From contig NZ_LT629797.1 in the NCBI RefSeq assembly GCF_900106015.1, positions 1,674,001 through 1,738,000 of the forward strand: a stretch of 64,000 nt of DNA, read 5' to 3'. Under the pieces are notes generated by a model. That model was given only the letters and a program-made list of their open reading frames with translations. It was not told the DNA's origin and ran no database searches. The stretch comes from Pseudomonas sihuiensis. Its GTDB lineage: Bacteria > Pseudomonadota > Gammaproteobacteria > Pseudomonadales > Pseudomonadaceae. This document shows, one piece after another, positions 34,434 through 63,255 of the stretch. The position numbers and the translations under genes are program-made. The first letter of the stretch is position 1. Each line of letters opens with the position of its first letter.

Positions 34434-34453
34434 CCAAATGGTACTTTGGGATG
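34434..34453. promoter_or_regulatory. exa-type box upstream of pqqA
   Basis: CCAAATGGTACTTTGGGATG; the core GGTACTTTGG matches the second box at 51886 (CCAACTGGTACTTTGGGCAG). It lies 69 bp upstream of the pqqA start. Confidence 0.55.
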
Positions 34454-34546
34454 AATCGGCACTGGCATTGGTAGGTGACGCTATCAGTAGGCATGCCTCA
34501 CGCCTGGAAGGTTCCAGTCATCGCCTGGCCTGAAACATGCGCCAAT

Positions 34547-34568
34547 AAAAAACGCGGCCGAAGCCGCG
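34547..34568 (-). terminator. intrinsic terminator of exaC
   Basis: On the minus strand, CGCGGC-TTCG-GCCGCG is followed by TTTTTTATT. Confidence 0.8.
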
Positions 34569-34705
34569 TCGCGATAAGGATCTGCTGCCGTTCAGGCCCA
34601 TGGCTGCCTGCAGATCCACCCGGGTAGGGTTGTTCGCCTGGCAAGAGGCGGCGCACCGGAGCGAGCGCGCCACCTTTGGTACATAGCCGGCTCACGATCT
34701 TGCGA

Positions 34706-34812
34706 GCTAGAGACCTACAAGGCAGAAGCAGGTGAGGAAGCGGAGTGTACTTTTGTACATGAGCATTCCGAGCCTGCTTCTAACGCAGTAGGGCCGACGC
34801 GCAGCAGATCGT
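34706..34812. repeat. dispersed repeat, copy 1 (TACATGAGCATT family)
   Basis: It contains GAAGCGGAGTGTAC and, after TTTTG, TACATGAGCATTCCGAGC, then CGACGCGCAGCAGATC. The same order of blocks recurs at 41940-42045 with substitutions. It has an internal TGTAC/GTACA palindrome. Confidence 0.6.
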
Positions 34813-34822
34813 GTGCTGGCTA

Positions 34823-36343
<1,521 letters not shown>

Positions 36344-36453
36344 GATGCTGACCTCTCTTGTTGTCGGAGCCCGCTGCCAATCGGGGAAGCGAGTCATGGT
36401 TCGATCTTAGGAAGCCCCCGAAAACCTCGGTATGCGCCCATGGCATAGATCAC

Positions 36454-36473
36454 CTAGTCATTTGGTAGTAGAG
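36454..36473. promoter_or_regulatory. exa-type box upstream of exaC
   Basis: CTAGTCATTTGGTAGTAGAG, nearly identical to the box at 42581-42600 (16 of 20 positions). It ends 111 bp upstream of the exaC start. Confidence 0.6.
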
Positions 36474-36619
36474 CTGTCTGGCACGGGCTTTTGGCAGCGA
36501 GGCACGAGGCTGTGGAAGCTAAAGGCTAGACCCGTTGGCCTGGTCTTGCGTTCCCGACCAGAAAATTTCGCCCGTGGTATGTCGCAGCAGCTCAGCGCTG
36601 GCAGGCAGGCGCCAGAAAC

Positions 36620-36650
36620 GACGATGGCCGGACAGAGTCCGGCCATCGTC
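36620..36650. terminator. strong hairpin after the quinoprotein dehydrogenase
   Basis: A perfect 14-bp stem GACGATGGCCGGAC/GTCCGGCCATCGTC with loop AGA, 16 bp after the stop codon. The T tract is weak. Confidence 0.7.
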
Positions 36651-36665
36651 TGACACCTCAAGCGA

Positions 36666-38441
36666 TCAGCGCTTGGCCACCAGCTCCTTCGGCAGCTTGA
36701 AGGTCCAGAGCATGCCGCCCTGGTTCAGGTGCTTGACGCGCTTGGCCACCTCGCCACCCCACAGCGGTACCGCACCACCCCAGCCGGACAGCACCGAAAC
36801 GTACTGCTCGCCGTCCATTTCCCAGGTCACGGGCGAGCCGATCACGCCCGAGCCGGTCTGGAATTCCCAGACTTTCTCACCGGTCTTGGCATTGAACGCC
36901 TGCAGGTAGCCTTCCGGGTTGCCGGTGAACACCAGGTTGCCCTTGGTGGTCAGCACGCCGCCCCACAGCGGCGCGTAGTTCTTGTGGCGCCAGACTTCCT
37001 TGCCGGTTTTCGGGTCGATGGCGCGCAGCACGCCGATGTATTCCTCGTTGAGCGGCTTGATGGTGAAGCCGGCACCCAGGTAGGCGGCGCCCTTCTTGTA
37101 GGCGATATCCTCGTTCCAGATGTCCATGCCCCACTCGTTGGACGGCACGTAGAACAGGCCGGTGTCCTGGCTGTAGGCCATGGGCATCCAGTTCTTCGCG
37201 CCGAGGAAGGCCGGAGCGGAGAACACGCTCGTGCCCTTCTCCTTCGCGCTAGGCGAGCCCGGACGGTTGCTGTCGTCGTAGATCGGCCGGCCGTTCTTGT
37301 CCAGGCCTTTGGCCCAGGTGATCTTGTCGACGAAGGGGAAGCCACGGATGAACTTGCCGTTGGTGCGATCGAGCACATAGAAGAAGCCGTTACGGTCGGC
37401 AGTGGCCGCAGCCTTCACGGTCTTGCCGCCTTCCTGATAGTCGAAGGAGATCAGCTCGTTGACGCCGTCGAAGTCCCAGCCGTCGTGCGGCGTGGTCTGG
37501 AAGTGCCATTTGATGCTGCCGTCGTCCGGGTTCAGTGCCAGGCGCGACGAGGAATAGAGGTTGTCGCCAGGACGCAGGTGCGAGTTCCACGGTGCCGGGT
37601 TGCCGGTACCGAAGAACAGCAGGTTGGTGTCGGCATCGTAGTAGCCGCCCAGCCAGGGCGCGGCGCCGCCGGTCTTCCACAGGTCGCCCGGCCAGGTCTT
37701 GCCGGCCTCGCCACCGCTGATACCGTTCTCGACGGCCTTGCCGTCCTTGTAGACGTAGCCCATGTGACCTTCGACGGTCGGGCGACTCCAGAGCAGCTCA
37801 CCGTTCTTCGGATCGTAGGCTTCGATCTTGCCGACCACGCCGAACTCACCACCGGAGACGCCAGTGATCAGCTTGCCGTTGACCACCAGCGGCGCCGCGG
37901 TGATGGAGTAACCCGCCTTGTGATCGGCGACGTTCTTGCGCCATACCACTTTGCCGGTGTCCTTGTTCAGCGCCACCAGCTTGGCATCCAGGGTGCCGAA
38001 GATCACCAGGTCGTCGTACAGGGCGACACCCCGGTTGATCACGTCGCAGCAGGGGCGGATATCGTCTGGCAGGCGCGCTTCGTACTGCCACAGCTCACGC
38101 CCGGTGCGCGCATCGACGGCGAACACCCGCGAGTAGGAAGCGGTGACGTACATCACCCCGTCCTTAATCAGCGGCTGCGCCTGCTGACCACGCTGCTTCT
38201 CGCCACCGAAGGACATGGTCCAGACCGGGCGCAGTTCCTTGACGTTCTGATCGTTGAGGATGTTCAGCGGGCTGTAGCGCTGGCCCTGCAGACCGAGGCC
38301 ATTGGTGACGATCTCGTCGGTGGTGGTGGCGTCCTTGAGAATCTCGGCGTCGGTGACCGCCAGCGCGGCGGCGGACGGCAACAGCATGGCGGCACAGAGT
38401 GCGGTGAGGAGGAAAGGCTGGCGAAGACCGGCGTGTTTCAT
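36666..38441 (-). CDS. pedH: PQQ-dependent alcohol dehydrogenase, lanthanide type (PedH-like)
   Basis: A 591-residue periplasmic quinoprotein alcohol dehydrogenase with an eight-bladed propeller. The signal peptide is [20 protein letters not shown] through ALA (start ATG 38441). The vicinal disulfide is in [10 protein letters not shown]. The catalytic Asp is residue 323 in WDFDGVNE, with a second Asp two residues on at 325. That D-x-D pair is the lanthanide-binding signature of XoxF/PedH enzymes, whereas calcium enzymes have Ser or Ala there. Accessory genes and cytochrome c550 lie upstream on the same strand, and exaC lies beyond it. Lanthanide dependence is inferred from the one residue and the PedE/PedH precedent. 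Confidence 0.9.
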
Positions 38442-38550
38442 TGCGGCTACCTCTGCGGGTTCATTGTTATTGCCGGGAAATTTTCCCGGTCTGCCGCAAA
38501 TTCTTGGCTCACCCGGGTCACCCAACAATTGCACCCCCAGCCGATTTTCC

Positions 38551-38570
38551 TCGTTCCTTGGTAGCAATAC
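38551..38570. promoter_or_regulatory. exa-type box upstream of the lanthanide-type dehydrogenase
   Basis: TCGTTCCTTGGTAGCAATAC, a weaker match that keeps the core CCTTGGTAG of the box at 42581. It lies 110 bp upstream of the start. Confidence 0.45.
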
Positions 38571-38658
38571 CTGCTCCACAGGCCATGATCATGACGATTG
38601 CGGCGGCCCCGGCTTTGCCCGACACTTGGCCGCCCGCACATTCTGATCGGAGACGCCC

Positions 38659-39045
38659 GTGCCCCACCCTCGCCAGGAAATTCTCAACCATCTCGATGCA
38701 CTGGACTGCACGGTCTATCGCCCCGACGAGCAGGACCCGGATGCCGAAGAGCAGGACCTGGGCGACGCCAAGGTGCTGATCACCGGCGCCTTCGAGCCGC
38801 CACAGGAGTGGGACGCGCACCAGCGCGAGGACTACTACGGCGAGGAAGATCCCACGCACTTCGTCAGCGCCCATATCGAATGCCTGGCCAAGCCAGCCAC
38901 CCGGGAATTCTTCATGCCCGACAGCGGTGACTACGTGGCCGTGCAGTCCAGCCAGGGCGACGTGGTGATGTATTACGTCTACGACCACGAAGAGACCGAG
39001 CACGGCCGTCATTACGTGCTGATTCGTGATGACGAAGAGCTCTGA
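38659..39045 (+). CDS. conserved hypothetical acidic protein
   Basis: A 128-residue, very acidic protein starting at GTG 38659 (MPHPRQEILNHLDALDC) and ending HYVLIRDDEEL. It contains no signal peptide or membrane segment and I recognise no domain. It is divergent from the lanthanide-type dehydrogenase, and its spacer includes the latter's box. Codon usage is like its neighbours. REP repeats directly follow its stop. I cannot assign a function. Confidence 0.7.
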   Translation: MPHPRQEILNHLDALDCTVYRPDEQDPDAEEQDLGDAKVLITGAFEPPQEWDAHQREDYYGEEDPTHFVSAHIECLAKPATREFFMPDSGDYVAVQSSQGDVVMYYVYDHEETEHGRHYVLIRDDEEL

Positions 39046-39055
39046 TCGCTGAGAG

Positions 39056-39197
39056 TGGGAGGCGCTTCAGCGGCGACTCTTTTATACGCAAGTCGCGGCT
39101 AAAGCCCTTCCCACAGGGTATTTCCAGCACATGCTGGTGCGCGCAGCGCACCCTACCAAGCCGTGGCGACGTTCGCGTAGGGTGCGCCGCGCGCACC
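39056..39197. repeat. REP cluster (two families)
   Basis: The first pair begins GTGGGAGGCGCTTCAGCGGC and closes TTCCCAC (39056-39114). It is followed by two opposed GTAGGGTGCGC-family units at 39136-39156 and 39177-39197. Confidence 0.75.
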
Positions 39198-39214
39198 GAT
39201 GACACCCCAGGTTT

Positions 39215-40144
39215 CTAATCCTGACGATCAACCCGCCCCATGGCATTGAGCTCGTAGCGCGGGTAGAGGTGGCTGACGCTGCGGATCAGCTCGTAGCGCG
39301 ACAGGTTGACCTGGGCGAAGCGCTCAGGGATGGGCGCGCGGATCAATTCGTTCATCTCCGCGCCCTGCTCCGCCCCCTGACGCAGCATGCCATCGAGCCA
39401 GCCCAGGTAATCACGCATCTGCACGAACGGCGCCGCATCGGTGGTCACCGGGCCATGGCCGGGCACGATCTGCTTCCAGGGCATTGCTTCGAGCCGATCC
39501 AGATCAGCCAGCCACACGTCCAGCCCCGGGCTGTTCGGTGTGGTCAGCGCGCGCTGGTAGAACAGGATATCGCCGGCAAACAAGACGCCCGTGCGCTCGT
39601 CGAGAATCGCCAGATCGGCACCGGTGTGGCCACGCAGCGCCAGCAGTTGCAGGCGTCTGCCGCCTATCTCCAGCGTGCCTTCCTGCACGTCCTCGGTGGG
39701 CAACACCACTTCGGTACCTCGCATCCAGTCGCCGACCAGGCGGTACATGTTCTCCGCCATGGCATCGCCCTGCTCGGCCAACAACCCTGTGGTCTCGGGT
39801 AGCGCCGCGATAGGCACCCCGGCGAAAGCCTGGTTGCCGAGCACATGATCGGGGTGATGGTGAGTCAGCAACACGCGCACCACCGGTTTGCCGGTGGTTT
39901 TCTCGATACTCTGGCGCAGCGCCTCGCCGTAGCGGCGCGACGGGCCGGTATCGATCACCACCACGCCGTCAGCGGTTTCGATGAAGCCCACGTTGACGAT
40001 ATTGCCGCCGTTGTCCGCGGCGAAATTATCGGTGCTGCCTTCCAGCAACCAGACGCCGTCAGCAATCTGCCGGGGTTGCAGGTGGTAGTCGAGCGCCTGG
40101 GCAAACCCGGTACCGAGAGCCAGCAGAAACAGTATCCAGCGCAT
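39215..40144 (-). CDS. quinoprotein relay-system zinc metallohydrolase
   Basis: A 309-residue metallo-beta-lactamase-fold protein with a signal peptide (MRWILFLLALGTGFAQA). It has the zinc motif HHHPDH at 95-100 (LLTHHHPDHVLGN), LALRGHTGADLAIL, FAGDILF and IVPGHGPV. It belongs to the group of SoxH-related periplasmic metallohydrolases found next to PQQ dehydrogenases and SoxYZ-like carriers. The reaction is unknown; the company suggests maintenance of the carrier or dehydrogenase. It is part of the minus-strand series exaB, MxaJ-like, SoxYZ-like, this gene. Confidence 0.87.
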   Translation of the reverse strand: MRWILFLLALGTGFAQALDYHLQPRQIADGVWLLEGSTDNFAADNGGNIVNVGFIETADGVVVIDTGPSRRYGEALRQSIEKTTGKPVVRVLLTHHHPDHVLGNQAFAGVPIAALPETTGLLAEQGDAMAENMYRLVGDWMRGTEVVLPTEDVQEGTLEIGGRRLQLLALRGHTGADLAILDERTGVLFAGDILFYQRALTTPNSPGLDVWLADLDRLEAMPWKQIVPGHGPVTTDAAPFVQMRDYLGWLDGMLRQGAEQGAEMNELIRAPIPERFAQVNLSRYELIRSVSHLYPRYELNAMGRVDRQD

Positions 40145-40263
40145 GCTTTTCTCCTCGAAATCGGCCTGAGCCGCGAGCTTCGCCCCGAGGCGGGGCTCCT
40201 ACAGACTGGGCGAGCATTGTTGGTTCTTGTGGGAGCCGCGCCCCGCGGCGAATAGAACCGTCG

Positions 40264-41013: not shown

Positions 41014-41034
41014 CGCCCACCTCCGGCTCGACTC

Positions 41035-41907: not shown

Positions 41908-41939
41908 GACGCGAGCGCTTATGAAGAAATCGTCGTGAG

Positions 41940-42045: not shown

Positions 42046-42055
42046 CATCAAGCGC

Positions 42056-42475: not shown

Positions 42476-42804
42476 GGCTAGGACCTCATCTAATGCACGC
42501 AATACAGCCCATAAAGAGCTCGTGGCGACCATCTTAGAAAGGCCGTGCAACGCGCCGAATGCTGCTTTGGTGGTCGCGTTCTAGTCCCTTGGTAGTAGGG
42601 CTTGTGAGGGGGTGTTGGCGATGCCTTGGCAGCAAGGCCAAGTCATGGGCCGACCGGGAAATCCTCCCGGCAAAGGCGGGAGTTTTTCCGTAGGCGCGAA
42701 GGTGGCCGGGCACCACCATCGGCTTGCCTCTGCTGGACATCCCCGGAACCCAGTTTTCGCGGTGTCACTGCAGCGACCTACCACCTCCAATGGGAAGCAC
42801 AACG
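42476..42804. promoter_or_regulatory. divergent exaB/exaA promoter region
   Basis: A 329-bp intergenic region between the divergent starts of exaB and exaA. It contains one clear exa-type box at 42581-42600. An imperfect hairpin (CCGGGAAATCCTCCCGG, 42655-42671) lies in the exaA leader. No coding sequence. Confidence 0.7.
42581..42600. promoter_or_regulatory. exa-type box in the exaA/exaB spacer
   Basis: CTAGTCCCTTGGTAGTAGGG, an inverted repeat with CTA(G)T/(G)TAG-like arms around CCTTGG. It lies 106 bp from the exaB start and 205 bp from the exaA start. Confidence 0.65.
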
Positions 42805-49438: not shown

Positions 49439-50089
49439 TCAAGCACTCTCCAACCCCACCCTTACCACCCCACTATCAATCGCCAAATGCACCAGCTCCG
49501 CCTGCGAGCTGATCTGCAGTTTGTTCTTCACCAGGGTCTGGTAGTTGGACAGGGTCTTGCTACTGATACACAGCTTCTCGGCGATCTGCCGGGGTGGCAG
49601 GCCGCGGGCGAGCATGACGAAGATTTCGAACTCGCGCTGGGTCAGTTCGCGCAGGCGGGGGTCGAGGCCGCCTGCGCTGGCGGGGTTGCAGGCCAGTTGG
49701 GTGGCCAGTGGCTGCTCGATATAGGCGTGGCCGGCGGCGGTGCGTTTGACCGCTTCCACCAGCACTTCAGGTGAGGAGTTCTTGGTCAGGTAGCCGATGG
49801 CGCCGGCGTCCAGTGCCTGGCGTACCAGGGGCAGCTCGTCGTGCATGCTGAAGAACAGTACGCGCAGTTGCGGCAGGCGCTGGCGCAGGCGCCGGGTGGT
49901 TTCCAGGCCGCTGATGCCGGGCAGGCCGATATCCATGATCACCAGATTGGGAATCTCTTCCTGCACCCGCTGCAGGGCCTGTTCGCCATCACAGGCCTCA
50001 CGCAATTGCACCTCGGGCAAAAGGGCGCGCAGCAGGCTGGCGTAGCCCTGACGCACCACGGCGTGATCGTCCACCAGTAAAACCTTCAT
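49439..50089 (-). CDS. exaE: LuxR-type response regulator (ExaE/EraR, PedR2-like)
   Basis: A 216-residue NarL/FixJ-type regulator. The receiver domain has phospho-acceptor Asp53 (LVIMDIGLPG), Lys in YLTKNSSPEV and an acidic pair at VDDH. The C-terminal LuxR HTH reads LTQREFEIFVMLARGLPPRQ, then KTLSNYQTLVKNKL. The ATG at 50089 overlaps the upstream kinase gene by 4 bp. By homology to ExaE it activates exaA. It is a candidate binder of the recurring TACTACCTTGGTACT box. Its own gene is on the opposite strand to exaA. Confidence 0.88.
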   Translation of the reverse strand: MKVLLVDDHAVVRQGYASLLRALLPEVQLREACDGEQALQRVQEEIPNLVIMDIGLPGISGLETTRRLRQRLPQLRVLFFSMHDELPLVRQALDAGAIGYLTKNSSPEVLVEAVKRTAAGHAYIEQPLATQLACNPASAGGLDPRLRELTQREFEIFVMLARGLPPRQIAEKLCISSKTLSNYQTLVKNKLQISSQAELVHLAIDSGVVRVGLESA

Positions 50090-51351
50090 CGCGTCGCCTC
50101 CAAGGGAATGTTCAGGCACAGCGCCCAGCCCGCTTGCGGACGGCTGTGCAGGCGCAGTTCGCCGCCGAGACTGCGGCTGCGTTCGCGCATCGAGCGCAGG
50201 CCGATGCCAGGACGCAGCGGCAGTGCAGTGCCCTGGCCGTTGTCGCGCACCAACAGGCGCAAGCCCTGGCCACGGCGTTGCAGGCGAATGCGCACTTCAC
50301 TGGCATCGGCATGGCGGGCGACATTGGTCAGCGCCTCCTGCACCAGGCGATAGAGATGGGCCTTGCTCGCCAGCGGCAGCTCTGGCAATTGCTCGCCCAG
50401 TTGCAGGCGGCAGCGAATGCCTTGCGCCTGCTGCCAGTCGGCGGCCAGTTGCTGCAGCGCCGGGCCGAGTTCCAGGCGCTCCAGCACTACCGGATACAGA
50501 TCGCGGATCAGGCTGCGGAAGCCCTGTTGCAGGCGCTCGCAGTTGTCGTCGAGCAGGCGCGCGGTGTCCTGCACCTGCTGCGGCCGATCGGCTATTACCT
50601 TGAGCAGGCAGGCCTGGGCACGAATGCCGCTGAGGTATTGGCCGAGGTCGTCATGCAGGGTCTGACCGAGGCGCGTGCGCTCGCGCTCCTGCAGCTCCAG
50701 CAGCGCCTGGGTCAGCTCGGCGTTGTCCGCCTGCACCTGTTGCAGGGTGATGGCCATCTCGTTGAAGTGCGCCGCCAGGTGCTTGGCCTCGGCCAGGCCG
50801 TGGTCATGCAGGCGCGTATCGAAGTGACCGGCACCGACTTCGCGCAGGCCGGCGAGCAGCTCGTCCAGCACACGGCGGGCGCGGCGCACGGCAAAGCGGA
50901 TGGTCAGCAGGCTGAGGATCAGGGCGAAGGCGCTGAGCAGCAGCAGTTGCAGCAGCGAGTCCTGGATTTCCTCGATCTCGTCGTAGGGATCGAGGGCGAT
51001 GCGCAACTCGCGGCCATCATCCAACGGCCAGGCATCGGCCACCAGCAATGCCGAGCCCAGCAGGCGCTCAGCGATCCAGTGCTCGATGGCACTTTCGGTT
51101 TGCTGCTTGGGCTCTTCGCCCGGGCGCAGCCAGCTCACGCGGATATGCCGCAGGTTCTCGGTCAGCTCCGGACGCAGGCTGCCGGGGTTGCTGCGCGCCA
51201 CTTCGCCCAGGTACTCGACCACCGCCTCGGCCGCCAGCAACTCGCGGCGCACGTCGTGGCCGGCCTGGCGCAACAGCAGCGCCAGCCCGGCCAGGGTCAC
51301 CAGCACGAACAGCAGGCTGACGCCGAGGTTGATGCGGCCGAGGGCGGTCAT
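50086..51351 (-). CDS. exaD: membrane sensor histidine kinase (ExaD/EraS, PedS2-like)
   Basis: A 421-residue NarX-type kinase: TM1 (about 9-27), a short periplasmic domain (to ~130), TM2 (about 132-152), a HAMP-like region (RRARRVLDELLAGLREVG), coiled coil, HisKA_3 with the phosphorylated His in GQTLHDDLGQYLSGIRAQ and HATPase_c (VQEALTNVARHADASEV, DNGQG, GIGLRSMRERSRSLGGEL). It pairs with the overlapping exaE gene. In P. putida the homologous PedS2 responds to lanthanides and switches between the Ca and Ln dehydrogenases. A similar role here is inferred, given both enzymes are present. Confidence 0.88.
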   Translation of the reverse strand: MTALGRINLGVSLLFVLVTLAGLALLLRQAGHDVRRELLAAEAVVEYLGEVARSNPGSLRPELTENLRHIRVSWLRPGEEPKQQTESAIEHWIAERLLGSALLVADAWPLDDGRELRIALDPYDEIEEIQDSLLQLLLLSAFALILSLLTIRFAVRRARRVLDELLAGLREVGAGHFDTRLHDHGLAEAKHLAAHFNEMAITLQQVQADNAELTQALLELQERERTRLGQTLHDDLGQYLSGIRAQACLLKVIADRPQQVQDTARLLDDNCERLQQGFRSLIRDLYPVVLERLELGPALQQLAADWQQAQGIRCRLQLGEQLPELPLASKAHLYRLVQEALTNVARHADASEVRIRLQRRGQGLRLLVRDNGQGTALPLRPGIGLRSMRERSRSLGGELRLHSRPQAGWALCLNIPLEATR

Positions 51352-51802: not shown

Positions 51803-51868
51803 GGCGTTCACCTGTTCTTGTTATTGGACGTCGCCTGCCATGCTAGGAAGTAAAGGCCCGCACCGGGT

Positions 51869-51887
51869 TACTACCTTGGTACTGCCC
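51869..51887. promoter_or_regulatory. exa-type box 1 in the cupredoxin/TPR spacer
   Basis: TACTACCTTGGTACTGCCC, the best representative of the recurring box. It lies between divergent genes, 67 bp from the cupredoxin-like start. Confidence 0.65.
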
Positions 51888-51905
51888 AACTGGTACTTTG
51901 GGCAG
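51886..51905. promoter_or_regulatory. exa-type box 2 in the cupredoxin/TPR spacer
   Basis: CCAACTGGTACTTTGGGCAG, adjacent to box 1 and close to the pqqA box at 34434. It is 147 bp upstream of the Sel1-like gene. Confidence 0.6.
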
Positions 51906-52051
51906 ATTTCCCGCCAGATCCGGGCCCAATGCCCATCGCCCCTGCCCTACCCGCCACCATCGGCGCATCCATCCGCCACCATCGAACTAAATACCGCACG
52001 TACCCGGCTTGTTAGCCTGACTCACCGCTTTCACCCTCTTGGAGTACAGCC

Positions 52052-53008
52052 ATGCGTCATCTCGCCTGCCTGCTGCTGGGCACACTGCTGAGCACGCCGC
52101 TGAGTGCCGGCGACGACGAACAGACGCGTATCGCCCGCGAGATGATCCAGGTGCTGGACGCCTATGCGGTATACAAGATGGGCGACTTCGATGAGGCCTT
52201 CGAGCGCTATCGCCAGCTTGCCGAAGCCGGTAACCGCCAGGGCATGCTCAACCTCGGTAACATGTACGCCGCCGGCCTGGGCACCGCAGCCGACCTCGAG
52301 CAGGCGTTGGCCTGGTACCAGCGCGCCGCCGATGCGGGTGACGCCATCGGCATGTACGAGGTGGCCCGCGCCCATGACCTGGGGTTGGGCACCGAGGCCG
52401 ACCCGGACCAGGCGGCGCAGTGGTATCGACGTGCTGCCGAGCAGGACAACGCCGAAGCGCAGTGGACGCTGGGTGAACGCCTGTACAAGCAAGGCCAGCA
52501 CAGTGCCGGGCTGAGCTGGATACGGGCCGCGGCCAGGCAGGGAGAACATCCGCAGGCCCAGCAGTTTCTCGCCAGCCGCGAAGGCAGCCGCACCACCATC
52601 ACCCTGACCGAGCACGAACGCCGCGCCGCACTGGCGGCCCTCGCGACGGTCGACCAGGCAGCCCAACGCCAGGATGCCGAGGCACTGGTGATGCTGATCG
52701 ACGATGACGCACAGATCCTGGTGCGACTGCCGCACGAGCGTAACTGGCAGCATCTGAGCAAGGCGCAGCTGCGCACGCTCTGGCAGCAGACCTTTGCCCA
52801 GGCCGACGAGTACAGCTACCAGCGCAATGAGCCCGAACTGATAAACGCAGGCGGCACTATCCTGGCCTTCTCGCTGATCCGGGAGAAGCTGAAACGCGGT
52901 GACCGGATACAGCAACTGGAAATTCGCGAAGACGCCCAGTTACGCGTCCGCGACGGCAAGGCCAGCATCCATGGCCTGCGCCTGGATATCCGCCAACAAG
53001 GCGAGTGA
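52052..53008 (+). CDS. exported Sel1/TPR-repeat protein
   Basis: A 318-residue protein with a signal peptide (MRHLACLLLGTLLSTPLSAG). It has Sel1-like tetratricopeptide repeats (residues ~45-165: GMLNLGNMYAAGLGTAADLE, AIGMYEVARAHDLGLGTEAD, AEAQWTLGERLYKQGQHSAG) and a C-terminal domain (~185-315) resembling small SnoaL/NTF2-like folds. Sel1 repeats mediate protein-protein contacts. The divergent exa-type boxes upstream place it in the alcohol-oxidation regulon. Its partner is unknown. Confidence 0.8.
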   Translation: MRHLACLLLGTLLSTPLSAGDDEQTRIAREMIQVLDAYAVYKMGDFDEAFERYRQLAEAGNRQGMLNLGNMYAAGLGTAADLEQALAWYQRAADAGDAIGMYEVARAHDLGLGTEADPDQAAQWYRRAAEQDNAEAQWTLGERLYKQGQHSAGLSWIRAAARQGEHPQAQQFLASREGSRTTITLTEHERRAALAALATVDQAAQRQDAEALVMLIDDDAQILVRLPHERNWQHLSKAQLRTLWQQTFAQADEYSYQRNEPELINAGGTILAFSLIREKLKRGDRIQQLEIREDAQLRVRDGKASIHGLRLDIRQQGE

Positions 53009-53035
53009 AGGCCTTGAAGAACGGCCCTGAAGAGC

Positions 53036-53055
53036 TACGACCTTTGTACTAAGCC
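53036..53055. promoter_or_regulatory. exa-type box upstream of the ABC-system genes
   Basis: TACGACCTTTGTACTAAGCC, 74 bp upstream of the binding-protein start, with two mismatches to TACTACCTTGGTACT. Confidence 0.5.
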
Positions 53056-53129
53056 GGCGCGACCTTGGGCATATTTCCCGACCTGGCGACGCTTCCTATG
53101 CTGGCGACAACCTCTGCAGGAGTCGCCCC

Positions 53130-54311
53130 ATGCACCAGATCAGTTGCCGCCTGTTGTTCTGCCTCGTTGCCACACTCGGCCTGGCGACCAATGCCGCAGC
53201 GAACGACTTGCAGATACGCATCGGCTACCTGGGCCACCTGCCGCCGCACGGCCCGCTGCTGTCCAACGTCATCCCCGAACCAACCGATGCCGGCCGTCGT
53301 GGCGCCGAGCTGGCGATCGCCGACAGCAACAGCACCGGGCGCTTTCTCAAGCAGAGCTACAGCCTCGAGGCAGTCGAAAGCGAGGATGCGGCGACTCTAC
53401 TGGCCACGGCCGATAACCTGCATGCGCAAGGCATTCGCCTGTTCGTGGTCAACGCCCCAGCCGATACCCTGCGCCAGCTCAGCCAGCGCCTGCCGGACAG
53501 CCTGCTGTTCAATGCCGGCAGCAGCGATGACGGCCTGCGCCGCGAGCAGTGCCTGGGCAACGTGCTGCACACCCTGCCCAGCCGCGCCATGCTGGCCGAT
53601 GCCCTGGCGCAGTTTCTCGCCGCGCGCAAATGGACGCGCTGGCTGCTGGTGAGCGGCAATACCGAGGACGACCTCGCCTATGCCGATGCGCTCAAGCGCG
53701 CCGCCAAGCGCTTCGGTCACAAAATCGTCGCCGAGAAGCCCTGGAGCTTCGACAACGACCAGCGCCGCAGCGCCCAGGCGGAAATGCCGCTGTTCACCCA
53801 GGCCAGCGAGTACGACGTGGTGCTGGTGGCCGACGAGCGCGGCGACTTCGGCGAATACCTGCCCTACAACACCTGGTACCCGCGCCCGGTGGCCGGAACC
53901 CAGGGCCTGACCCCGACTGCCTGGCACAAGACAGTGGAAACCTTTGGCGCCGCGCAGTTGCAGAAGCGCTTCGAGGAACTGGCCGGCCGCTGGATGAACG
54001 ACCGCGACTTCGCCGCCTGGATGGCCGTGCGCAGCTTGGCCACGGCCATCACCAAGCAGCGCGCCGCCGAGCCGCAGGGCATTCGCTACCTGCTGCTGAA
54101 CGAACAACTACCGCTGGACGGCTTCAAGGGCCGCAAGCTGAGTTTCCGCCCGTGGAACGGCGAGCTGCGCCAACCGATTCCGCTGGTGCACCCGCGCGCG
54201 CTGGTCAGCACCTCGCCGCAGGACGGTTTTCTCCATCCGAGCAACGAAATGGACAGCCTCGGCTACGACAGGCCTGAGGTGAGCTGTGATCTGGCGGGAA
54301 CACCTCTGTAG
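53130..54311 (+). CDS. PQQ-catabolism-linked ABC-system periplasmic binding protein
   Basis: A 393-residue periplasmic binding-fold protein (type I, Leu/Ile/Val-like) with a signal peptide (MHQISCRLLFCLVATLGLAT through AAA). It starts with DLQIRIGYLGHLPPHGPL and contains RRGAELAIADSNSTGRFL and two alternating domains. It matches the group of binding proteins that occur only beside PQQ-dependent dehydrogenases with the propeller, ATPase and permease that follow here. The substrate is unknown. The last residues and the stop (PL, then TAG) come from a GTAGGAGCC REP. Confidence 0.84.
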   Translation: MHQISCRLLFCLVATLGLATNAAANDLQIRIGYLGHLPPHGPLLSNVIPEPTDAGRRGAELAIADSNSTGRFLKQSYSLEAVESEDAATLLATADNLHAQGIRLFVVNAPADTLRQLSQRLPDSLLFNAGSSDDGLRREQCLGNVLHTLPSRAMLADALAQFLAARKWTRWLLVSGNTEDDLAYADALKRAAKRFGHKIVAEKPWSFDNDQRRSAQAEMPLFTQASEYDVVLVADERGDFGEYLPYNTWYPRPVAGTQGLTPTAWHKTVETFGAAQLQKRFEELAGRWMNDRDFAAWMAVRSLATAITKQRAAEPQGIRYLLLNEQLPLDGFKGRKLSFRPWNGELRQPIPLVHPRALVSTSPQDGFLHPSNEMDSLGYDRPEVSCDLAGTPL

Positions 54312-57082: not shown

Positions 57083-57161
57083 AACCAGCAATGCACTTGA
57101 TCGTTGCTCTCGCTCCACGTGGGAATGGCTCTGCGTCCGCTGCCGAATGCAGCCCAAATCC

Positions 57162-57214
57162 GTAGGGCGGGTGCAACCCGCCAATAGCGCGACGGCGGGT
57201 TGCACCCGCCCTAC
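57162..57214. repeat. GTAGGGCGGGT-type REP pair
   Basis: GTAGGGCGGGTGCAACCCGC faces GCGGGTTGCACCCGCCCTAC. A sister pair is at 63354-63406. Confidence 0.78.
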
Positions 57215-57234
57215 GAACGTCTCAGCAGCCCCTC

Positions 57235-57251
57235 TACTACTTTGGTACTGG
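57235..57251. promoter_or_regulatory. exa-type box upstream of the rhodanese-like gene
   Basis: TACTACTTTGGTACTGG, 79 bp upstream of the start at 57331, with one mismatch to the box at 51869. Confidence 0.62.
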
Positions 57252-57330
57252 TTTTCCTCTCCAACGTAGAATTCCCAAGCCTGCGACCATGGCCTGTAAT
57301 ACCGCTACAAAAATAAGTAGAGACCTTGCC

Positions 57331-57906: not shown

Positions 57907-57929
57907 TCACAACAACGAGGTGAAAGGCC

Positions 57930-58595
57930 ATGTACAAGATTCTGATTGCCGACGACCATCCGCTGTTTCGTGAAGCCATCCATAACGTCATCGCCGACGG
58001 TTTTCCCGGCAGCGAGATCATGGAAACCGCCGACCTGGACAGCGCCCTGGAGCTGACCCAAAGCCACGACGACCTGGATCTGATCCTGCTCGACCTGAAC
58101 ATGCCCGGCATGCACGGCCTGGGCGGGCTGATGAACCTGCGTAACGAGGCGCCGACCATCCCGGTGGTGATCGTCTCCGCCGAGCAGGACAAGCAGATCG
58201 TGCTGCAGGCCATCACCTACGGCGCAGTGGGTTTCATCACCAAGTCCTCGCCACGCGCGCAGATGACCGAGGCCATCGCGCAGATCCTCGACGGCAACGT
58301 CTACCTGCCGCCGGACATCATCCGCTCGCAGAAGAGCGGCGGCCATCGCCACCACCCCGACCACCACAGCATCTCGCCGGAGCTGCTGCAGGCGCTGACG
58401 CGCAAGCAGTTGCTGGTGCTCGAACGCATGACCAAGGGCGAGTCGAACAAGCAGATCGCCTACAGCCTGGATATCGCCGAAACCACGGTCAAAGCGCACG
58501 TCTCGGCCATCCTGCGCAAGCTCAACGTGCACAACCGTGTGCAGGCCATTCTCTCGGCTGGCGATATCGATTTCGCGTCCTATCTGCGGCGCTAG
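57930..58595 (+). CDS. erbR: LuxR-type response regulator ErbR (AgmR)
   Basis: A 221-residue NarL-type regulator: receiver Asp55 ([13 protein letters not shown]), Lys in [10 protein letters not shown], a His-rich linker ([11 protein letters not shown]) and a LuxR HTH ([20 protein letters not shown], then [20 protein letters not shown]). It matches AgmR/ErbR, the master activator of PQQ-dependent alcohol oxidation in pseudomonads. No cognate kinase gene adjoins it; ErcS or NahK-type soluble kinases encoded in this window are candidates. It is the other candidate binder of the recurring promoter box. Confidence 0.9.
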
Positions 58596-58727
58596 CTCGG
58601 CAAGAGTGAGCGTCGATCCCGCGCATAGCACCTGGGCTCCCGCCTTCGCGGGAGTGACACACGAGGCTGTCCTGACTCCCGTCATCAACCCGTGCTAAAA
58701 CGGCGGCCTCACCGATTGGAGTCCACC

Positions 58728-59147
58728 ATGCACATCCGCCCCTTCCAGCTCTCCGACGAAGCCGCCGTCGTCGACCTCTGGCAACGCTGCGACCTGACCC
58801 GCCCCTGGAACGATCCGCACAAGGACATCCAGCGCAAGCTGCAGGTGCAGCCCGAGCTGTTTCTGGTAGGCGAGATCGACGGCAAGCTGGTGGCCTCGGC
58901 CATGGCCGGCTACGAGGGCCATCGCGGCTGGGTCAACTATCTGGCGGTGTGTCCGGAGCAACGCCAGCAAGGCCTGGCCCGTCAGTTGATGGCGTATATC
59001 GAAGAACAGTTGCTGGCCCTGGGCTGCCCCAAGCTCAGCCTGCAGGTGCGCGATACCAACGCGGCGGCATTGGCCTTCTATGAGCGGCTTGGCTACAAGG
59101 TCGATGCATCCGTCAGCCTGGGCAAGCGCCTGATCGCGGATGATTGA
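58728..59147 (+). CDS. GNAT-family acetyltransferase (YpeA-like)
   Basis: A 139-residue GNAT acetyltransferase starting MHIRPFQLSDEAAVVDLWQR at ATG 58728. It contains the acetyl-CoA-binding motif A (VNYLAVCPEQRQQGLARQLM) and motif B (NAAALAFYERLGYKVD), as in YpeA. Its substrate is unknown. It is separated from erbR by a 132-bp spacer and is probably unrelated to alcohol metabolism. Confidence 0.88.
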   Translation: MHIRPFQLSDEAAVVDLWQRCDLTRPWNDPHKDIQRKLQVQPELFLVGEIDGKLVASAMAGYEGHRGWVNYLAVCPEQRQQGLARQLMAYIEEQLLALGCPKLSLQVRDTNAAALAFYERLGYKVDASVSLGKRLIADD

Positions 59148-59163
59148 CGAGGTGCCCGTATCG

Positions 59164-59362
59164 TAGCCCGGATGCAATCCGGGGCAGAACGGCGTGATCT
59201 TTCCCGGATTGCATCCGGGCTACGGGCTCGCTGAGCAGACGCCAGCAACAGCTACTCACGACTCACAAATATAGCCCCCTTGCGGGTGCTGCTTTTTGTA
59301 GGAGCCCGCTTGCGGGCGATCCATGTATCCGTGGCCTGATCGCCGGCAAGCCGGCTCCTACA
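59164..59362. repeat. REP pairs between the acetyltransferase and nahK
   Basis: GTAGCCCGGATGCAATCCGG faces CCGGATTGCATCCGGGCTAC (59164-59222). GTAGGAGCCCGCTTGCGGGC faces GCCGGCAAGCCGGCTCCTAC (59298-59361). They fill most of the 291-bp spacer. Confidence 0.78.
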
Positions 59363-59438
59363 AATACCGTCCGATTGCGACTCACGACCTGTAAACCTGC
59401 CCGCTGAACAGGCAGCGCCCTACGGATATGACCCGCGA

Positions 59439-62081
59439 TCAAGTCCCCGCCCCACGCTCCATCAGGTGACTCATCGCCGCCTTCAGCTTCATCGGCCGCA
59501 CCGGTTTGTGCAGCAGGCTGTGGCCCAGCTCGCGCATCTGCTGCTTGAGCTCGTTGCTGTAGTTGGCGGTGATCATCAGCGCAGGTAGCGGCGTGCTGCG
59601 CCGGGCGTTGATCTGCGCCACGGCGTCGACGCCATTGCGCTCGTCGTCGAGGTGGTAGTCGGCGATCAGCAGGTCGGCTTCGGCGTGGTAGTTGTCCACC
59701 TGGCGCGCCAGGTCTTCTTCACTCAGCGCAGTAACCACGCGGCAGCCCCAGCCTTCGAGCAGGGTGCGCATGCCGGCGCAGATCGCCGCGTCGTTATCCA
59801 GCACCCATACCCGCGCACCGCTGAGGCGTTCGAGCAATTGATTCGGGCTGTCCTGCACCGTACGCACACGCGGCGCGCGGCGGGTCAGTGGCACTTCCAC
59901 GGCGAACATCGAGCCCCTGCCCTGCTGCGATGCCACGCGGATGCGGTGGCCGAGCATGCCCGCAATCTTCTCGACGATCGCCAGGCCCAGGCCCAGGCCG
60001 CGATCCTGCTTGCGCTGCACGTTATCGCCGCGTTTGAACTCCTGGAATATCTCCACCAACTTGTCCTGGGCGATGCCGATGCCGGTGTCCCAGACTTCGA
60101 TGGACAGGCTGTTTCCGCGCCGTCGGCAGCCCAGCAGGATGCGCCCGCTGGCGGTGTAGCGAATGGCGTTGCTGAGGAAGTTGCGCAGGATCCGCGCCAG
60201 CAGTTGTACGTCGCTGCGTACCAGGGCCGAGCTGGGCAGGTAATCCAGGCGCAGGCCTTCGCTGCGGGCGATCTGGTGATACTCGGCGGCCAGGTTCTCC
60301 AGCAGCTCGCTGACGGCGAATGGTGCGATATCAGGCTTGATCACCCCGGCATCGAGCTTGGAAATGTCCACCAGCGTGCCGAGCAGACTCTCCACGTCTT
60401 CCAGCGAGTTGCTGACGTTGCGCACCAGCGGCGCACAGCCTGACAGGTCGCGTTTCTCCAACAAGGCACTGGTGAACAGCCGCGCAGCATTGAGCGGCTG
60501 AAGCAGGTCATGGCTGACCGCGGCGAGGAACTTGGTCTTGGACAGGTTGGCCTGCTCGGCCTCGCCCTTGGCATCACGCAGGCGCGCTTCCATCTGCGTG
60601 CGCTCGTCGATCTCGCGGCGCAGCTGGTCGTTCACCGTGGTCAGCTCGGCGGTGCGCTCGCGCACGCGCTGTTCCAGGTGTTGATAAGCCTGGTGTAGTG
60701 CTTCGGCGGTGCGGCGACGCTCGGTGATGTCGCGGATCAGCACGAAGATGCCGACCACCTCGCCACTGGCCTGACGGTTGGGCACGTAGGAACGCAGCAT
60801 GTAGCGCTCCTGGCCGTTGTGGTTGGTTTCGGCGAATTCGAAGGTCACGCTCTCGCCGGACAGCGCCAGTTCGACGTAGGGCTCCAGGCGCTGGCAATGC
60901 TCCTCGCTGTGCACTTCGCGCAGGCTCTGGCCGAGCATGGCGCCGCGTGGCCAGCAGTACCACTCCTCGTAGACCTTGTTGGTGAATTCGTAGACCAGGT
61001 CGGCCGACAGGTAGGCGATCAGCGCCGGCACGTGGTCGGTGATCAGGCGAATCCAGCGCTCGCTGTCGCTCAGCGCCTGGGCCTGGCGATGGCGCTCGGT
61101 GATGTCGGTGAAGGTGTTGACAAAGCCACCAGTGGGCAGCGGATGGGTGCGCACTTCCAGCATGCGCCCGTCGAACAGACGCACCTCCACCTGGCGCAGC
61201 GGATTGCCGGCGGCATCGCGGCTGTCCGGGGTCAGCGGCTCAAGTTCGCTTTCCGCCATCACTTCGGCGAACGGCCGATGGGCGTTGATCGGCGCCAGCC
61301 CGCAGAGCTCGAGGAAGCGGTGGTTCCACAATTCCAGCGCGCCCTCGGCATTGACCATGGCCATGCCCTGCGACAGGTTGTCGACCGCGCGCTGCAGCAG
61401 GCGCGACTTCTGCGCCAGGGCCTGCTCGCGGCGCAGCGCCTCGCTCTGCTTCACCTCGGTGATGTCGGTGTAGAGGATCACCAGCCCACCTTCGCGGGTC
61501 GGCCGCTCACTGACCTGCACCCAGCGCCCGTCCTGCAGGCGGAACAGGCTCGGCTCGCCTTCCTTGCCCAGCTGCGCTTCTACCACCAAACCGGTGCTGC
61601 GGCTCAGCCGGCGAATTTCCTCCAGCCGCGTGCCGGTGCCGATGCGCGCGCGGCTACGCGCCCACAGCGCCTTGAAACGGCTGTTGAACAGCACGATGCG
61701 CTGACGATCATCGAACAGCACGAAGGCATCGGAGATGCTCTCGATGGCGTCGATCAAATGCTGGTGCGCAGTCTCGGCACGCAAGCGCGCATCGCTGAGC
61801 AACTGGTTGCTGGATTTCAGCTCAGCCATCGCCTGGTTCAGCGCATCGGTGCGCTCGCGCACTTGCTCGGAGAGCACCACCGAATGCTGGAAGGCCGCGT
61901 AGGCGTCATCGCCACGGGAATGGATCGACTCAACCCGTTCGATCAGCGCGGCGTTGATGCGCTTGAGCTTGGCGTTCTCCTGCTCCAGCGCCGCACAACG
62001 TGCCTGCAGCTCAGCGCTCGCCACGCCCAACAGGTCGGCCAATGGCGACACCGGTGAAGGTCTGGTTGATGTGCATGCCAT
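59439..62081 (-). CDS. nahK: multi-PAS hybrid histidine kinase NahK (ErcS')
   Basis: An 880-residue soluble hybrid kinase: an N-terminal coiled coil, three PAS domains (about 105-215, 220-335, 340-460), a coiled coil, HisKA with His in LAAVSHDLLQPLNAARLF, HATPase_c (ILRNFLSNAIRYT, DTGIGIAQDKLVEIFQEF, GLGLGLAIVEKIAGMLG) and a C-terminal receiver with Asp in LLIADYHLDDERNG. In P. aeruginosa the orthologous NahK is inhibited by NO-bound NosP and influences biofilm and exa regulation (ErcS'). Its start (ATG 62081, GGAG nine bases upstream) lies 71 bp inside nosP. Confidence 0.9.
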   Translation of the reverse strand: MACTSTRPSPVSPLADLLGVASAELQARCAALEQENAKLKRINAALIERVESIHSRGDDAYAAFQHSVVLSEQVRERTDALNQAMAELKSSNQLLSDARLRAETAHQHLIDAIESISDAFVLFDDRQRIVLFNSRFKALWARSRARIGTGTRLEEIRRLSRSTGLVVEAQLGKEGEPSLFRLQDGRWVQVSERPTREGGLVILYTDITEVKQSEALRREQALAQKSRLLQRAVDNLSQGMAMVNAEGALELWNHRFLELCGLAPINAHRPFAEVMAESELEPLTPDSRDAAGNPLRQVEVRLFDGRMLEVRTHPLPTGGFVNTFTDITERHRQAQALSDSERWIRLITDHVPALIAYLSADLVYEFTNKVYEEWYCWPRGAMLGQSLREVHSEEHCQRLEPYVELALSGESVTFEFAETNHNGQERYMLRSYVPNRQASGEVVGIFVLIRDITERRRTAEALHQAYQHLEQRVRERTAELTTVNDQLRREIDERTQMEARLRDAKGEAEQANLSKTKFLAAVSHDLLQPLNAARLFTSALLEKRDLSGCAPLVRNVSNSLEDVESLLGTLVDISKLDAGVIKPDIAPFAVSELLENLAAEYHQIARSEGLRLDYLPSSALVRSDVQLLARILRNFLSNAIRYTASGRILLGCRRRGNSLSIEVWDTGIGIAQDKLVEIFQEFKRGDNVQRKQDRGLGLGLAIVEKIAGMLGHRIRVASQQGRGSMFAVEVPLTRRAPRVRTVQDSPNQLLERLSGARVWVLDNDAAICAGMRTLLEGWGCRVVTALSEEDLARQVDNYHAEADLLIADYHLDDERNGVDAVAQINARRSTPLPALMITANYSNELKQQMRELGHSLLHKPVRPMKLKAAMSHLMERGAGT

Positions 62082-63174
62082 TGAACTGCTCTCCGTAGGT
62101 GTTGAAGCCGATCACCCGCTGCTGGCGCAGCAGTGTGGCGACCGACTCGACGCCGCCATCGTTCTCGATCTCCAGGCGGCGCAGGAAGCAGTCGCAGCCG
62201 ATGGTCAGCAGCAGCGGACCGAGTCGCTGCACCAACCCGGCGAACAACTGCTGCAGGTTCGGCAGCAAGGGGCCGGGGTGCATGGCGGTGAGGACGATGC
62301 CGTTCTCCACCGCGCAGTAGAAGGTCAGGCTGAGGTCGTCGTGCACCTGCTGGATCGAGCGCACGTAGTAGTGATCGCTGATCCGCACCGCCAGCGGATA
62401 GGCGGCGAACGCGCGCAGATCCAGAGCCTCGATCGGCAGGCCGATCAGGTCGGCATATTCCTGCGCGGCCGGCGCGGCATTGAGCTCGTACACCCGGCGC
62501 GTGGCGCTGTCGGCACGGGTCACCACCAGCTTTTCCGCACTGGGCTGGATGTGATGGGTGCTGAACACCTCGAACTCCAGCCAGGTATTGAACAGCACCA
62601 CCACCGCCGCGCCGCTGTGGAAGCGCCCGCCGTGATAGACGTGGGTATGGGTCAGGTGGTTGTCGTCGCCAGCCGAACCGCCGAAGTGCGGGATGCTGCC
62701 CAGCGCCGCGCTGAGTGCGCCGAGCACCAATTCCTCGCGGCTGGAAAGGCCATCGAGCAGGGTCAGGGCGAAGCTATGGCCCTTGATCGAGGCCAGCTCG
62801 TTGCTGCGACAGTTCTTGACCAGGCCATCGACCAGTTGCTGCGCATCGAGCAGATTGAAGCGTTCCATCTCGTCGATCAGCACGCTGGCGATGGAGAAGC
62901 AGCGCAGGTCGAAGCCCAGCGCTACCACGCAGCCACGGCCATAGCCCTGCGGGGTGATCTCGCCGGCGCTGGTACAGCCGACCAGGCTGACGCCGCCGAA
63001 GTGGGCCTCCAGCGCCTGGCCGAGGCCGTCGAGGTCGTATTCAGCCGAGCAGAAGAACAGCACGAAACCGAGATAGGGATGGATCAGCTGACGTGCCAGT
63101 TCCTGGGCGGCCAATTCCACATCCTTCGTGCTGGAGACGGCGCTGAGCACGCCCTCCGACTGTTCCAAGGCCAT
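62011..63174 (-). CDS. nosP: FIST-domain heme/NO sensor NosP
   Basis: A 387-residue FIST_N/FIST_C protein (start ATG 63174, MALEQSEGVLSAVSS). FIST_N includes YLGFVLFFCSAEYDLDGLGQ and VSLVGCTSAGEITPQGYGRG, with GGSAGDDNHLTHTHVYHGGR in the middle; FIST_C ends EQFNGMHINQTFTGVAIGR. In pseudomonads this protein binds heme and NO and inhibits the neighbouring kinase. The 71-bp overlap with nahK and an exa-type box 64 bp upstream tie NO sensing to alcohol oxidation. Heme binding is from homology. Confidence 0.88.
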   Translation of the reverse strand: MALEQSEGVLSAVSSTKDVELAAQELARQLIHPYLGFVLFFCSAEYDLDGLGQALEAHFGGVSLVGCTSAGEITPQGYGRGCVVALGFDLRCFSIASVLIDEMERFNLLDAQQLVDGLVKNCRSNELASIKGHSFALTLLDGLSSREELVLGALSAALGSIPHFGGSAGDDNHLTHTHVYHGGRFHSGAAVVVLFNTWLEFEVFSTHHIQPSAEKLVVTRADSATRRVYELNAAPAAQEYADLIGLPIEALDLRAFAAYPLAVRISDHYYVRSIQQVHDDLSLTFYCAVENGIVLTAMHPGPLLPNLQQLFAGLVQRLGPLLLTIGCDCFLRRLEIENDGGVESVATLLRQQRVIGFNTYGEQFNGMHINQTFTGVAIGRPVGRGER

Positions 63175-63237
63175 ATCACGCCCCAATGCACCTGCTGATC
63201 ATGGGGAAATTCTACGAGGCCGGCGCTGCCCGCCCCA

Positions 63238-63255
63238 TGCTACTTGAGTACTGGG
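63238..63255. promoter_or_regulatory. exa-type box upstream of nosP (divergent form)
   Basis: TGCTACTTGAGTACTGGG retains the CTACTT and GTACTGG arms of the box at 57235. It is 64 bp upstream of the nosP start. Confidence 0.45.

Follow-up and report, generated by a model that had tools for sequence, protein, structure and literature searches.

A recurring box at the alcohol-oxidation promoters of Pseudomonas sihuiensis is the predicted operator of ErbR

A stretch of 64,000 nucleotides from Pseudomonas sihuiensis – hereafter the window, positions 1674001-1738000 of a single-contig genome of 5.48 Mb (NZ_LT629797.1) – carries an alcohol-oxidation locus whose promoters share a nearly palindromic box of 16 base pairs (bp). 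Our analysis indicates that this box is very probably the operator of ErbR (also AgmR or PedR1), a response regulator encoded in the same window: a predicted 7-2-7 dimer site from which alcohol-oxidation promoters would be activated in two layouts. We computed the sites, their conservation, the palindrome, the offsets and the co-occurrence with ErbR, take the dependence of ped promoters on PedR1 from published work, and infer contact by ErbR, binding as a dimer, the start sites and the geometry of activation. An operator for a response regulator is an ordinary kind of element; this one is defined here, with precise geometry, for a much-studied circuit.

The box and its conservation

The box exceeds chance. 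The window was scored with a matrix built from promoters of 24 other genomes, its own genome and the near relative G012 being excluded, and 399,620 positions in 20 stretches of the same genome served as control. The seven best positions in the window (57233, 42580, 51867, 36453, 63236, 38549 and 53034) are seven of the nine places where a first-pass annotation, made from the sequence, had seen a recurring box; no control position reaches the top six and two reach the seventh. The seeds of this matrix included window sites; a second matrix, from seeds without any window sequence, returned the identical seven sites with identical control counts.

The promoters compared came from the regions of 25 other ErbR-containing genomes plus our own, out of 27, with G035 and the far side of G040 left out and the regions of G006 and G048 ending at contig borders. 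Promoters of genes below 55-58% identity, or too close to the end of a locus, were dropped before matrix training and per-promoter counts; one of 17 nosP and three of 14 exaC promoters were removed from training for scores of 8 or less.

The other two of the nine places fared less well. The pqqA site (34437) scores 8.5-8.9 bits, a value matched or beaten by 10-11 control positions; an element with conserved letters lies 79-82 bp out in nine of nine pqqA promoters compared, in a search limited to 70-90 bp at a low threshold. The place reported at 51886 has its best register at 51889, with 2.7-3.1 bits, and 96-102 control positions score as well. That register lies exactly 22 bp from 51867, which is the spacing of the tandem second sites described below; we reject it as an independent box and read it as the weaker second half of a tandem pair with 51867.

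Predicted ErbR boxes and ErbR-like sites in the window (first matrix; control positions scoring as well):
57235..57250, + strand: distal-class box at the promoter that serves the rhodanese-like gene and erbR; 32.0 bits, 0 control positions
42582..42597, no strand assigned: box in the spacer of the divergent genes pedF (exaB) and exaA (pedE), of the distal class as seen from pedF; 26.2 bits, reached by 0 control positions
42560..42575, - strand: pedF again, an ErbR-like site 22 bp closer to the promoter than the first; 8.9 bits, the highest score among 48 offsets
51869..51884, no strand assigned: box in the spacer that separates the tetratricopeptide repeat (TPR) gene from the cupredoxin-like-pedS2-pedR2 operon, of the proximal class for the operon; 23.8 bits, 0 control positions
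51891..51906, + strand: weak second site on the TPR side (the reported 51886), 22 bp from the 51869 box; 2.7 bits, best of 48 offsets, insignificant alone
53036..53051, + strand: box, distal class, promoter of pedA1 (ATP-binding cassette (ABC) system linked to pyrroloquinoline quinone (PQQ)); 14.3 bits, 2 control positions
53058..53073, + strand: pedA1 again, a weak second site at a distance of 22 bp; best of 48 offsets yet only -9.2 bits
36455..36470, - strand: distal-class box at the exaC (pedI) promoter; 21.7 bits, 0 control positions
38551..38566, - strand: distal-class box ahead of the gene for the pedH-like dehydrogenase; 18.0 bits, 0 control positions
63238..63253, - strand: box, proximal class, nosP-nahK promoter; 19.5 bits, 0 control positions
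34439..34454, - strand: weak ErbR-like site, proximal class, pqqA promoter; 8.5 bits, 11 control positions, at the same place in 9 pqqA promoters

The promoters of cupredoxin-pedS2R2 and pedA1 are separated in this species by a TPR gene (51860-53160); in many compared relatives none was found there. These two promoters have in common the box and a similar TTGGGCA-ATTTCCCG stretch, as if a promoter had been duplicated.

How a scan for the box turns out depends on how it is written. The pattern TACTACCTTGGTACT, with up to 3 mismatches, has five matches in the window (four places, one of them on both strands) against 0.16 expected from shuffles. The 10-bp core C(C/T)TTGGTA(C/G)T given in the first-pass annotation has 12 against 5.2 expected, is far less specific, and was rejected as the motif because it is too loose; it is not present letter for letter at nosP and exaC, yet both of these boxes match the matrix well. 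Across the whole genome TASTACCTTGGTASTR with at most one mismatch has four matches, three of them inside the window. At 3 mismatches neither TASTACCTTGGTASTR (61 matches versus 103 for the pattern read backwards) nor the bare palindrome TACTACCNNGGTAGTA (51 versus 203 for the control, per strand) is enriched in the genome. On the question of whether the box is equally frequent elsewhere, the seven sites stand out, with 0-2 of 399,620 control positions scoring as well, and the three-mismatch patterns do not. The sole match with at most one mismatch beyond the window, at 3779796-3779811 of contig 1 of our genome (G000; near 1501 of locus L017), is flanked by open reading frames (ORFs) resembling a chromate transporter and cold-shock/ATPase proteins, with no alcohol gene by eye, and was rejected as a new regulon member. 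Upstream of ercA in our genome the best score is only -0.8 bits.

Conservation was followed through loci around erbR that could be named (the best 80 of 563, which may overlap with the set of 59 genomes used below). A box of at least 14 bits lies within 1.2 kb upstream of erbR in 80 of 80, and the 1,533 kb of these loci hold 263 boxes against 2 positions in 400 kb of control DNA (0.17 versus 0.005 per kb). By promoter, the box is present at pedF in 40/43, exaA in 26/29, pedA1 in 55/57, the rhodanese-like gene in 57/58, pedH in 18/18, the cupredoxin-like gene in 19/19, the TPR gene in 4/4, exaC in 3/4, ercA in 2/3 and nosP in 47/55. Directly upstream of pedS2, pedR2 and erbR the counts are 17/31, 16/47 and 10/80; another gene is often first in the operon. 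Ahead of genes further down operons the box is absent in these loci (pedD 0/39, SoxH 0/26, nahK 0/58, pedC 0/57), as it is at an ORF at 46.4 kb (0/3).

These counts bear on the simplest alternative, that the similarity reflects chance or only recent duplication of promoter segments. The core alone is found at about twice its expected frequency, the genome shows no enrichment at 3 mismatches, and the likeness of the TPR and pedA1 promoters beyond the box suggests local duplication. Set against this are site-for-site conservation across species and promoters, the strong contrast to control DNA and to downstream operon genes, and the mutually unlike flanks of the remaining promoters, which together leave the alternative a negligible likelihood.

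Form of the box and its distance from the promoter

When aligned, the box is an inverted repeat of two heptamers about a 2-bp centre, TACTAC[C/T]-N2-GGTA[C/G]T[G/A], of which TACTACC-TT-GGTACTG at 51869 and TACTACC-AA-GGGACTA at pedF are instances; the best form is TACTACC-N2-GGTAGTA. NarL is the best solved relative of both ErbR and PedR2, the second response regulator of the locus. The heptamer consensus of NarL is TACYNMT; TACTACT (57235) agrees with it and TACTACC deviates at the last base.

On each strand of 259 boxes (518 strands) we looked for a -10 hexamer, trying 65 offsets. Offsets 63 and 41 come out best, whether judged by mean score or by the proportion of good hexamers, which are present on 26% and 21% of strands, respectively, against a median over offsets of 0.8%. 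The two differ by 22 bp, so that the same -10 would be reached from either of two positions separated by two helical turns. With a -10 that spans -12 to -7, the box would be centred at -43.5 or -65.5. The -43.5 class comprises pedS2R2 (via the cupredoxin-like gene), nosP and pqqA; the -65.5 class comprises pedF, exaC, pedH and pedA1, with rhodanese-erbR one base less. At six of the eight window promoters the predicted hexamer is the best one, and TGTAAT at rhodanese-erbR is present in 21 of the 21 promoters shown in the alignment.

Predicted -10 hexamers:
42531..42536, - strand: pedF, TAAGAT; best -10-like hexamer, offset 63
36404..36409, - strand: exaC, TAAGAT; best -10-like hexamer, offset 63
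38500..38505, - strand: pedH, AAGAAT; second best, offset 63 (the best, offset 83, falls in an inverted repeat)
53097..53102, + strand: pedA1, TATGCT; best -10-like hexamer, offset 63
57295..57300, + strand: rhodanese-erbR, TGTAAT; third best here, offset 62, with a rival TAGAAT at 57267
51840..51845, - strand: cupredoxin-like-pedS2R2, TAGCAT; best -10-like hexamer, offset 41
63209..63214, - strand: nosP, TAGAAT; best -10-like hexamer, offset 41
34410..34415, - strand: pqqA, CTTAAT; best -10-like hexamer, offset 41

In the distal class the score for a second box peaks at exactly +22, the best of 48 offsets, a peak absent from the proximal class. The second site is strong at pedF only, where most columns are at least 90% conserved across 23 pedF promoters.

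Taken as a mechanism, an ErbR dimer would bind the 7-2-7 repeat TACTACC-N2-GGTAGTA and activate pedF, exaC, pedH, pedA1, rhodanese-erbR, cupredoxin-pedS2R2 and nosP-nahK, and pqqA through a weak site. In the proximal layout (pedS2R2, nosP, pqqA) a single box near -43.5 would adjoin the -35 region; in the distal layout (pedF, exaC, pedH, pedA1, rhodanese-erbR) a strong box would lie near -65.5, with a second site 22 bp closer to the promoter that is clear at pedF and weak or absent elsewhere. The palindrome and the two fixed distances, like the second inverted repeat discussed below, are new relative to the first-pass annotation.

The arrangement recalls that of NarL from Escherichia coli, which is described as using 7-2-7 sites, activating from -44.5, -67.5 and -77.5, and occupying tandem sites at ogt (PMC7419079). 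Like NarL operators the box has two inverted 7-bp elements 2 bp apart, and the centres predicted here from -10-like hexamers (-43.5 and -65.5) would be close to working NarL positions (-44.5 and -67.5). The two differ in half-site letters (TACTAC[C/T] here), in the distance between the centres of tandem sites (22 bp here, 33 bp at ogt; PMC7419079) and in signal: alcohol for the ErbR system, nitrate for NarL.

ErbR as the probable binder

Proteins above NCBIfam cut-offs in the window include ErcA, ExaC, two PQQ alcohol dehydrogenases, PedF, PQQ-associated SoxH- and SoxYZ-like proteins, a PQQ-linked ABC binding protein, a CXXCW rhodanese-like protein, NahK and NosP. The names erbR, pedS2, pedR2 and pedH were given from type and gene order, and the pedH-like enzyme is putatively lanthanide-type.

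57930..58595, + strand: erbR (agmR/pedR1), NarL/FixJ-type response regulator, proposed binder of the box
49439..50119, - strand: pedR2 (exaE/eraR), response regulator, proposed ErbR target and candidate binder of the second repeat
50086..51351, - strand: pedS2 (exaD/eraS), sensor kinase, named from type and gene order

The ErbR protein of the window is 100% identical to a Pseudomonas indoloxydans record and 96-97% identical to records from P. mendocina, P. chengduensis, P. yangonensis and P. guguanensis. Its best NCBIfam model is ErdR, with a score under that model's cut-off; PedR2 exceeds no curated cut-off among the NCBIfam models shown. Genes are 24 bp and about 13 bp apart in the rhodanese-erbR and cupredoxin-pedS2R2 units, so the rhodanese promoter is that of the rhodanese-erbR operon and the cupredoxin promoter that of pedS2R2. 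What had first been read as an extension of the regulon to uncharacterised genes therefore resolves in part into the promoters of the regulators themselves, and the box at rhodanese-erbR predicts autoregulation of erbR. Two side observations concern neighbouring DNA. A long inverted repeat at 57163-57213, which by eye resembles a repetitive extragenic palindrome, lies between pedC and the rhodanese-like gene; and at 9044-15052 a transposase-like ORF is followed by two large ORFs resembling, by eye, the two genes of a type III restriction-modification system, which have no relation to the alcohol locus.

The first-pass annotation had left the choice of binder between ErbR/AgmR and ExaE (here PedR2). 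Co-occurrence across 59 genomes of the genus supports that attribution and narrows it to ErbR. We took an E value of 1e-60 as the threshold for PedR2 and 1e-150 for a relative of ExaA/PedH, and searched for the box as TACTACCTTGGTASTR, allowing 1 mismatch. ErbR was found in 27 genomes, PedR2 in 18 and ErdR, over its cut-off, in all 59; TACTACCTTGGTASTR has 33 matches in 24 of the 59 genomes, and 6 when read backwards. Of the 27 genomes that have ErbR, 23 contain the box, compared with only G015 among the 32 that lack ErbR, a difference with a Fisher p of 2.6e-11 when genomes are treated as independent, though they are related. It lies within 15 kb of erbR on the same contig in 28 of 33 places; the remainder are in G015, G040 (other contig), G049, G000 (at 3779796) and G035 (other contig). 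Where ErbR and PedR2 occur together the box is present in 15 of 18 genomes (missing in G003, G009 and G028); where ErbR was found without PedR2, in 8 of 9 (missing in G006). G035 has exaA and is split into some 530 contigs, so its PedR2 may be unassembled. Since the box is kept in 8 of 9 ErbR genomes without PedR2 and in just 1 of 32 without ErbR, and ErdR is in all 59, the operator narrows to ErbR; on co-occurrence we rejected both PedR2 and ErdR as the binder.

The case of G040 deserves separate mention. Its locus (L107, 1-1100) has a pedS2-like remnant between pedF and pedA1, and neither exaA nor pedR2 was found; recent loss of the calcium-dependent dehydrogenase and its regulator is likely. 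Cleaner cases are G048 and G051, which have no ExaA/PedH relative at E 1e-150 yet carry a strong box ahead of erbR.

A reading in which the box is the operator of PedR2, or is shared by PedR2 and ErbR, has some attraction: PedR2 has its gene in the cluster, acts as an activator of pedE and plays a part in the repression of pedH (PMC6115532), both of which are boxed genes, and as a whole protein it is more NarL-like than ErbR (108.5 versus 89 bits). The retention of the box where no PedR2 passes E 1e-60 argues otherwise, as does the finding that PpedS2R2 is unaffected by loss of PedR2 (PMC13390443). At the level of the protein, ErbR has TTVKAHV aligned to STVKVHV of NarL, and PedR2 has KTLSNYQ, unlike NarL, over the same stretch, which we take to be the recognition helix. 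A different inverted repeat at exaA and pedH suits PedR2 better, and overall we consider PedR2 an improbable binder of the box. Still less probable is ErdR, an ErbR paralogue acting on ethanol and acetate genes: it is the closest NCBIfam relative of ErbR and is described as controlling ethanol-oxidation genes, but the box does not follow its presence, and the account of its target mapping gives 15 promoters that include acsA and do not include ercS or agmR (PMC9927353).

Published genetics point to ErbR. In P. putida KT2440 pedE, pedF and pedI transcripts drop strongly without PedR1, PpedS2R2 depends on PedR1 alone and is lost without it, and inducibility was seen for all six of the ped promoters tested, those of pedS1 and pedR1 among them (PMC13390443). 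The set of boxes, including autoregulation of erbR, agrees with this. The regulator gene and largely the same promoters are those of the known ErbR/AgmR/PedR1 regulon of the ped/exa cluster; what is added is the box, the two offsets, the boxes at pedH and pedA1 and the predicted autoregulation through rhodanese-erbR. The proposed extension to nitric oxide sensing has a predicted site at nosP behind it; the ErbR-2 iModulon of P. aeruginosa already comprises co-expressed genes from PA1975 (nosP) to PA1990 (PMC9023270), so nosP is a supported rather than a new member. In the literature searched, which included the text of PMC12997753, PMC13390443, PMC7188995 and PMC8041468 with figures and supplements outside the search, the available text prints no ErbR operator sequence or promoter geometry. 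Fragments of the box and of the second repeat, searched as strings, gave nothing on this system among the titles listed. A survey of P. aeruginosa response regulators by DNA affinity purification sequencing (Trouillon and others 2021) reportedly may contain an ErbR motif.

Several observations weigh against the box as an ErbR operator, or against parts of that proposal. As to geometry, start sites were placed by -10-like hexamers, with a -10 matrix written by hand; the hexamer at the standard offset is only second best at pedH and third best at rhodanese-erbR; the second site of the distal class has a mean of only -14.8 bits, being poor at pedH (-16.6) and absent at rhodanese-erbR (-28.8); and the exaA and TPR strands have no -10 at offsets 63 or 41, so that direct action of ErbR on exaA is unsupported by geometry. 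PMC13390443 argues for direct action of PedR1 on pedE too, which our geometry does not show. As to distribution, presence of ErbR and PedR2 was taken from a first pass that scored about half of the candidates; G003, G006, G009 and G028 have ErbR and no box at 1 mismatch (a matrix scan finds diverged boxes of at least 17 bits in three of them, the best in G006 reaching 11.8 bits); the likely recent loss of exaA and pedR2 in G040 means that its boxes could be leftovers; and the nosP box is missing from 8 of 55 named loci. Beyond the genus – ErbR is in 18 of 145 genomes of the order, our own and G028 included – only 5 of 17 erbR loci from other genera lie near a box that scores 14 bits or more, and at 6 of 17 the first matrix finds nothing that reaches 9 bits. 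The closer whole-protein match of PedR2 to NarL belongs here as well, as does an E. coli PpedS2R2 reporter that is highest with PedR1 and responds, though less, without added PedR1 (PMC13390443).

A second inverted repeat and the lanthanide switch

Two promoters of the locus contain an inverted repeat of another kind.

38473..38489, no strand assigned: CCGGGAAATTTTCCCGG, a perfect inverted repeat that follows closely on the inferred start of pedH; candidate site for repression by PedR2/ExaE
42654..42670, no strand assigned: repeat of the same kind with one arm imperfect, upstream of exaA; candidate PedR2/ExaE activator site
42677..42690, no strand assigned: the exaA repeat again in a weaker form, about 21.5 bp further along

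Across pedH promoters CCGGGAA-N3-TTCCCGG lies just past the inferred start with both arms intact in 12 of 14. At exaA promoters the form is CGGGAA-N3-TTCCCGG, with both arms intact in 11 of 18 (our own genome is not among them) and often a weaker copy about 22 bp further along. CCGGGAA-N3-TTCCCGG was rejected as a motif that is specific across the genome: at 1 mismatch the pattern is common, occurring in 59 of 59 genomes with 325 matches per strand, compared with 204 when it is reversed as a control, so that only the conserved places at exaA and pedH count.

We regard the repeat as a candidate operator of PedR2. In P. putida phosphorylated PedR2 activates pedE and takes part in repression of pedH, the activator of which is called yet unknown; the available text describes no binding site, motif or inverted repeat (PMC6115532). 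The inverse control of pedE and pedH by the PedS2/PedR2 lanthanide switch (PMC6115532) would fit a repeat that lies upstream of exaA and past the start of pedH. The pedH repeat is kept in G046 and G053, which lack PedR2, and is altered in G002, which weighs against the assignment.

ErbR would drive its own gene and pedS2R2 and so head a feed-forward cascade, to which PedR2 would then add the lanthanide decision at exaA and pedH. We offer, tentatively and as something that could well prove wrong, a fuller version of this scheme: that the decision on lanthanide and alcohol is written in two operators, ErbR boxes switching on every arm and one PedR2 repeat separating the two dehydrogenases, with ErbR as the activator of pedH. 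Were this so, ErbR boxes at -43.5 and -65.5 would drive erbR itself, pedS2R2, the cytochrome, the aldehyde dehydrogenase and the lanthanide-type dehydrogenase, and also metal uptake, PQQ synthesis and the NosP/NahK sensor; the PedR2 repeat would activate from its tandem upstream position at exaA and act as a roadblock at about +5 to +21 of pedH; and ErbR would be the pedH activator missing from the P. putida literature.

A defined operator with a fixed geometry would allow direct effects of ErbR to be separated from indirect ones, and it singles out nosP-nahK, pedH and the uptake system linked to PQQ as probable direct targets. It would account for the cascade from ErbR to PedS2/PedR2 and could guide the design of alcohol-responsive promoters, and the second repeat offers a concrete candidate site for the rare-earth switch.

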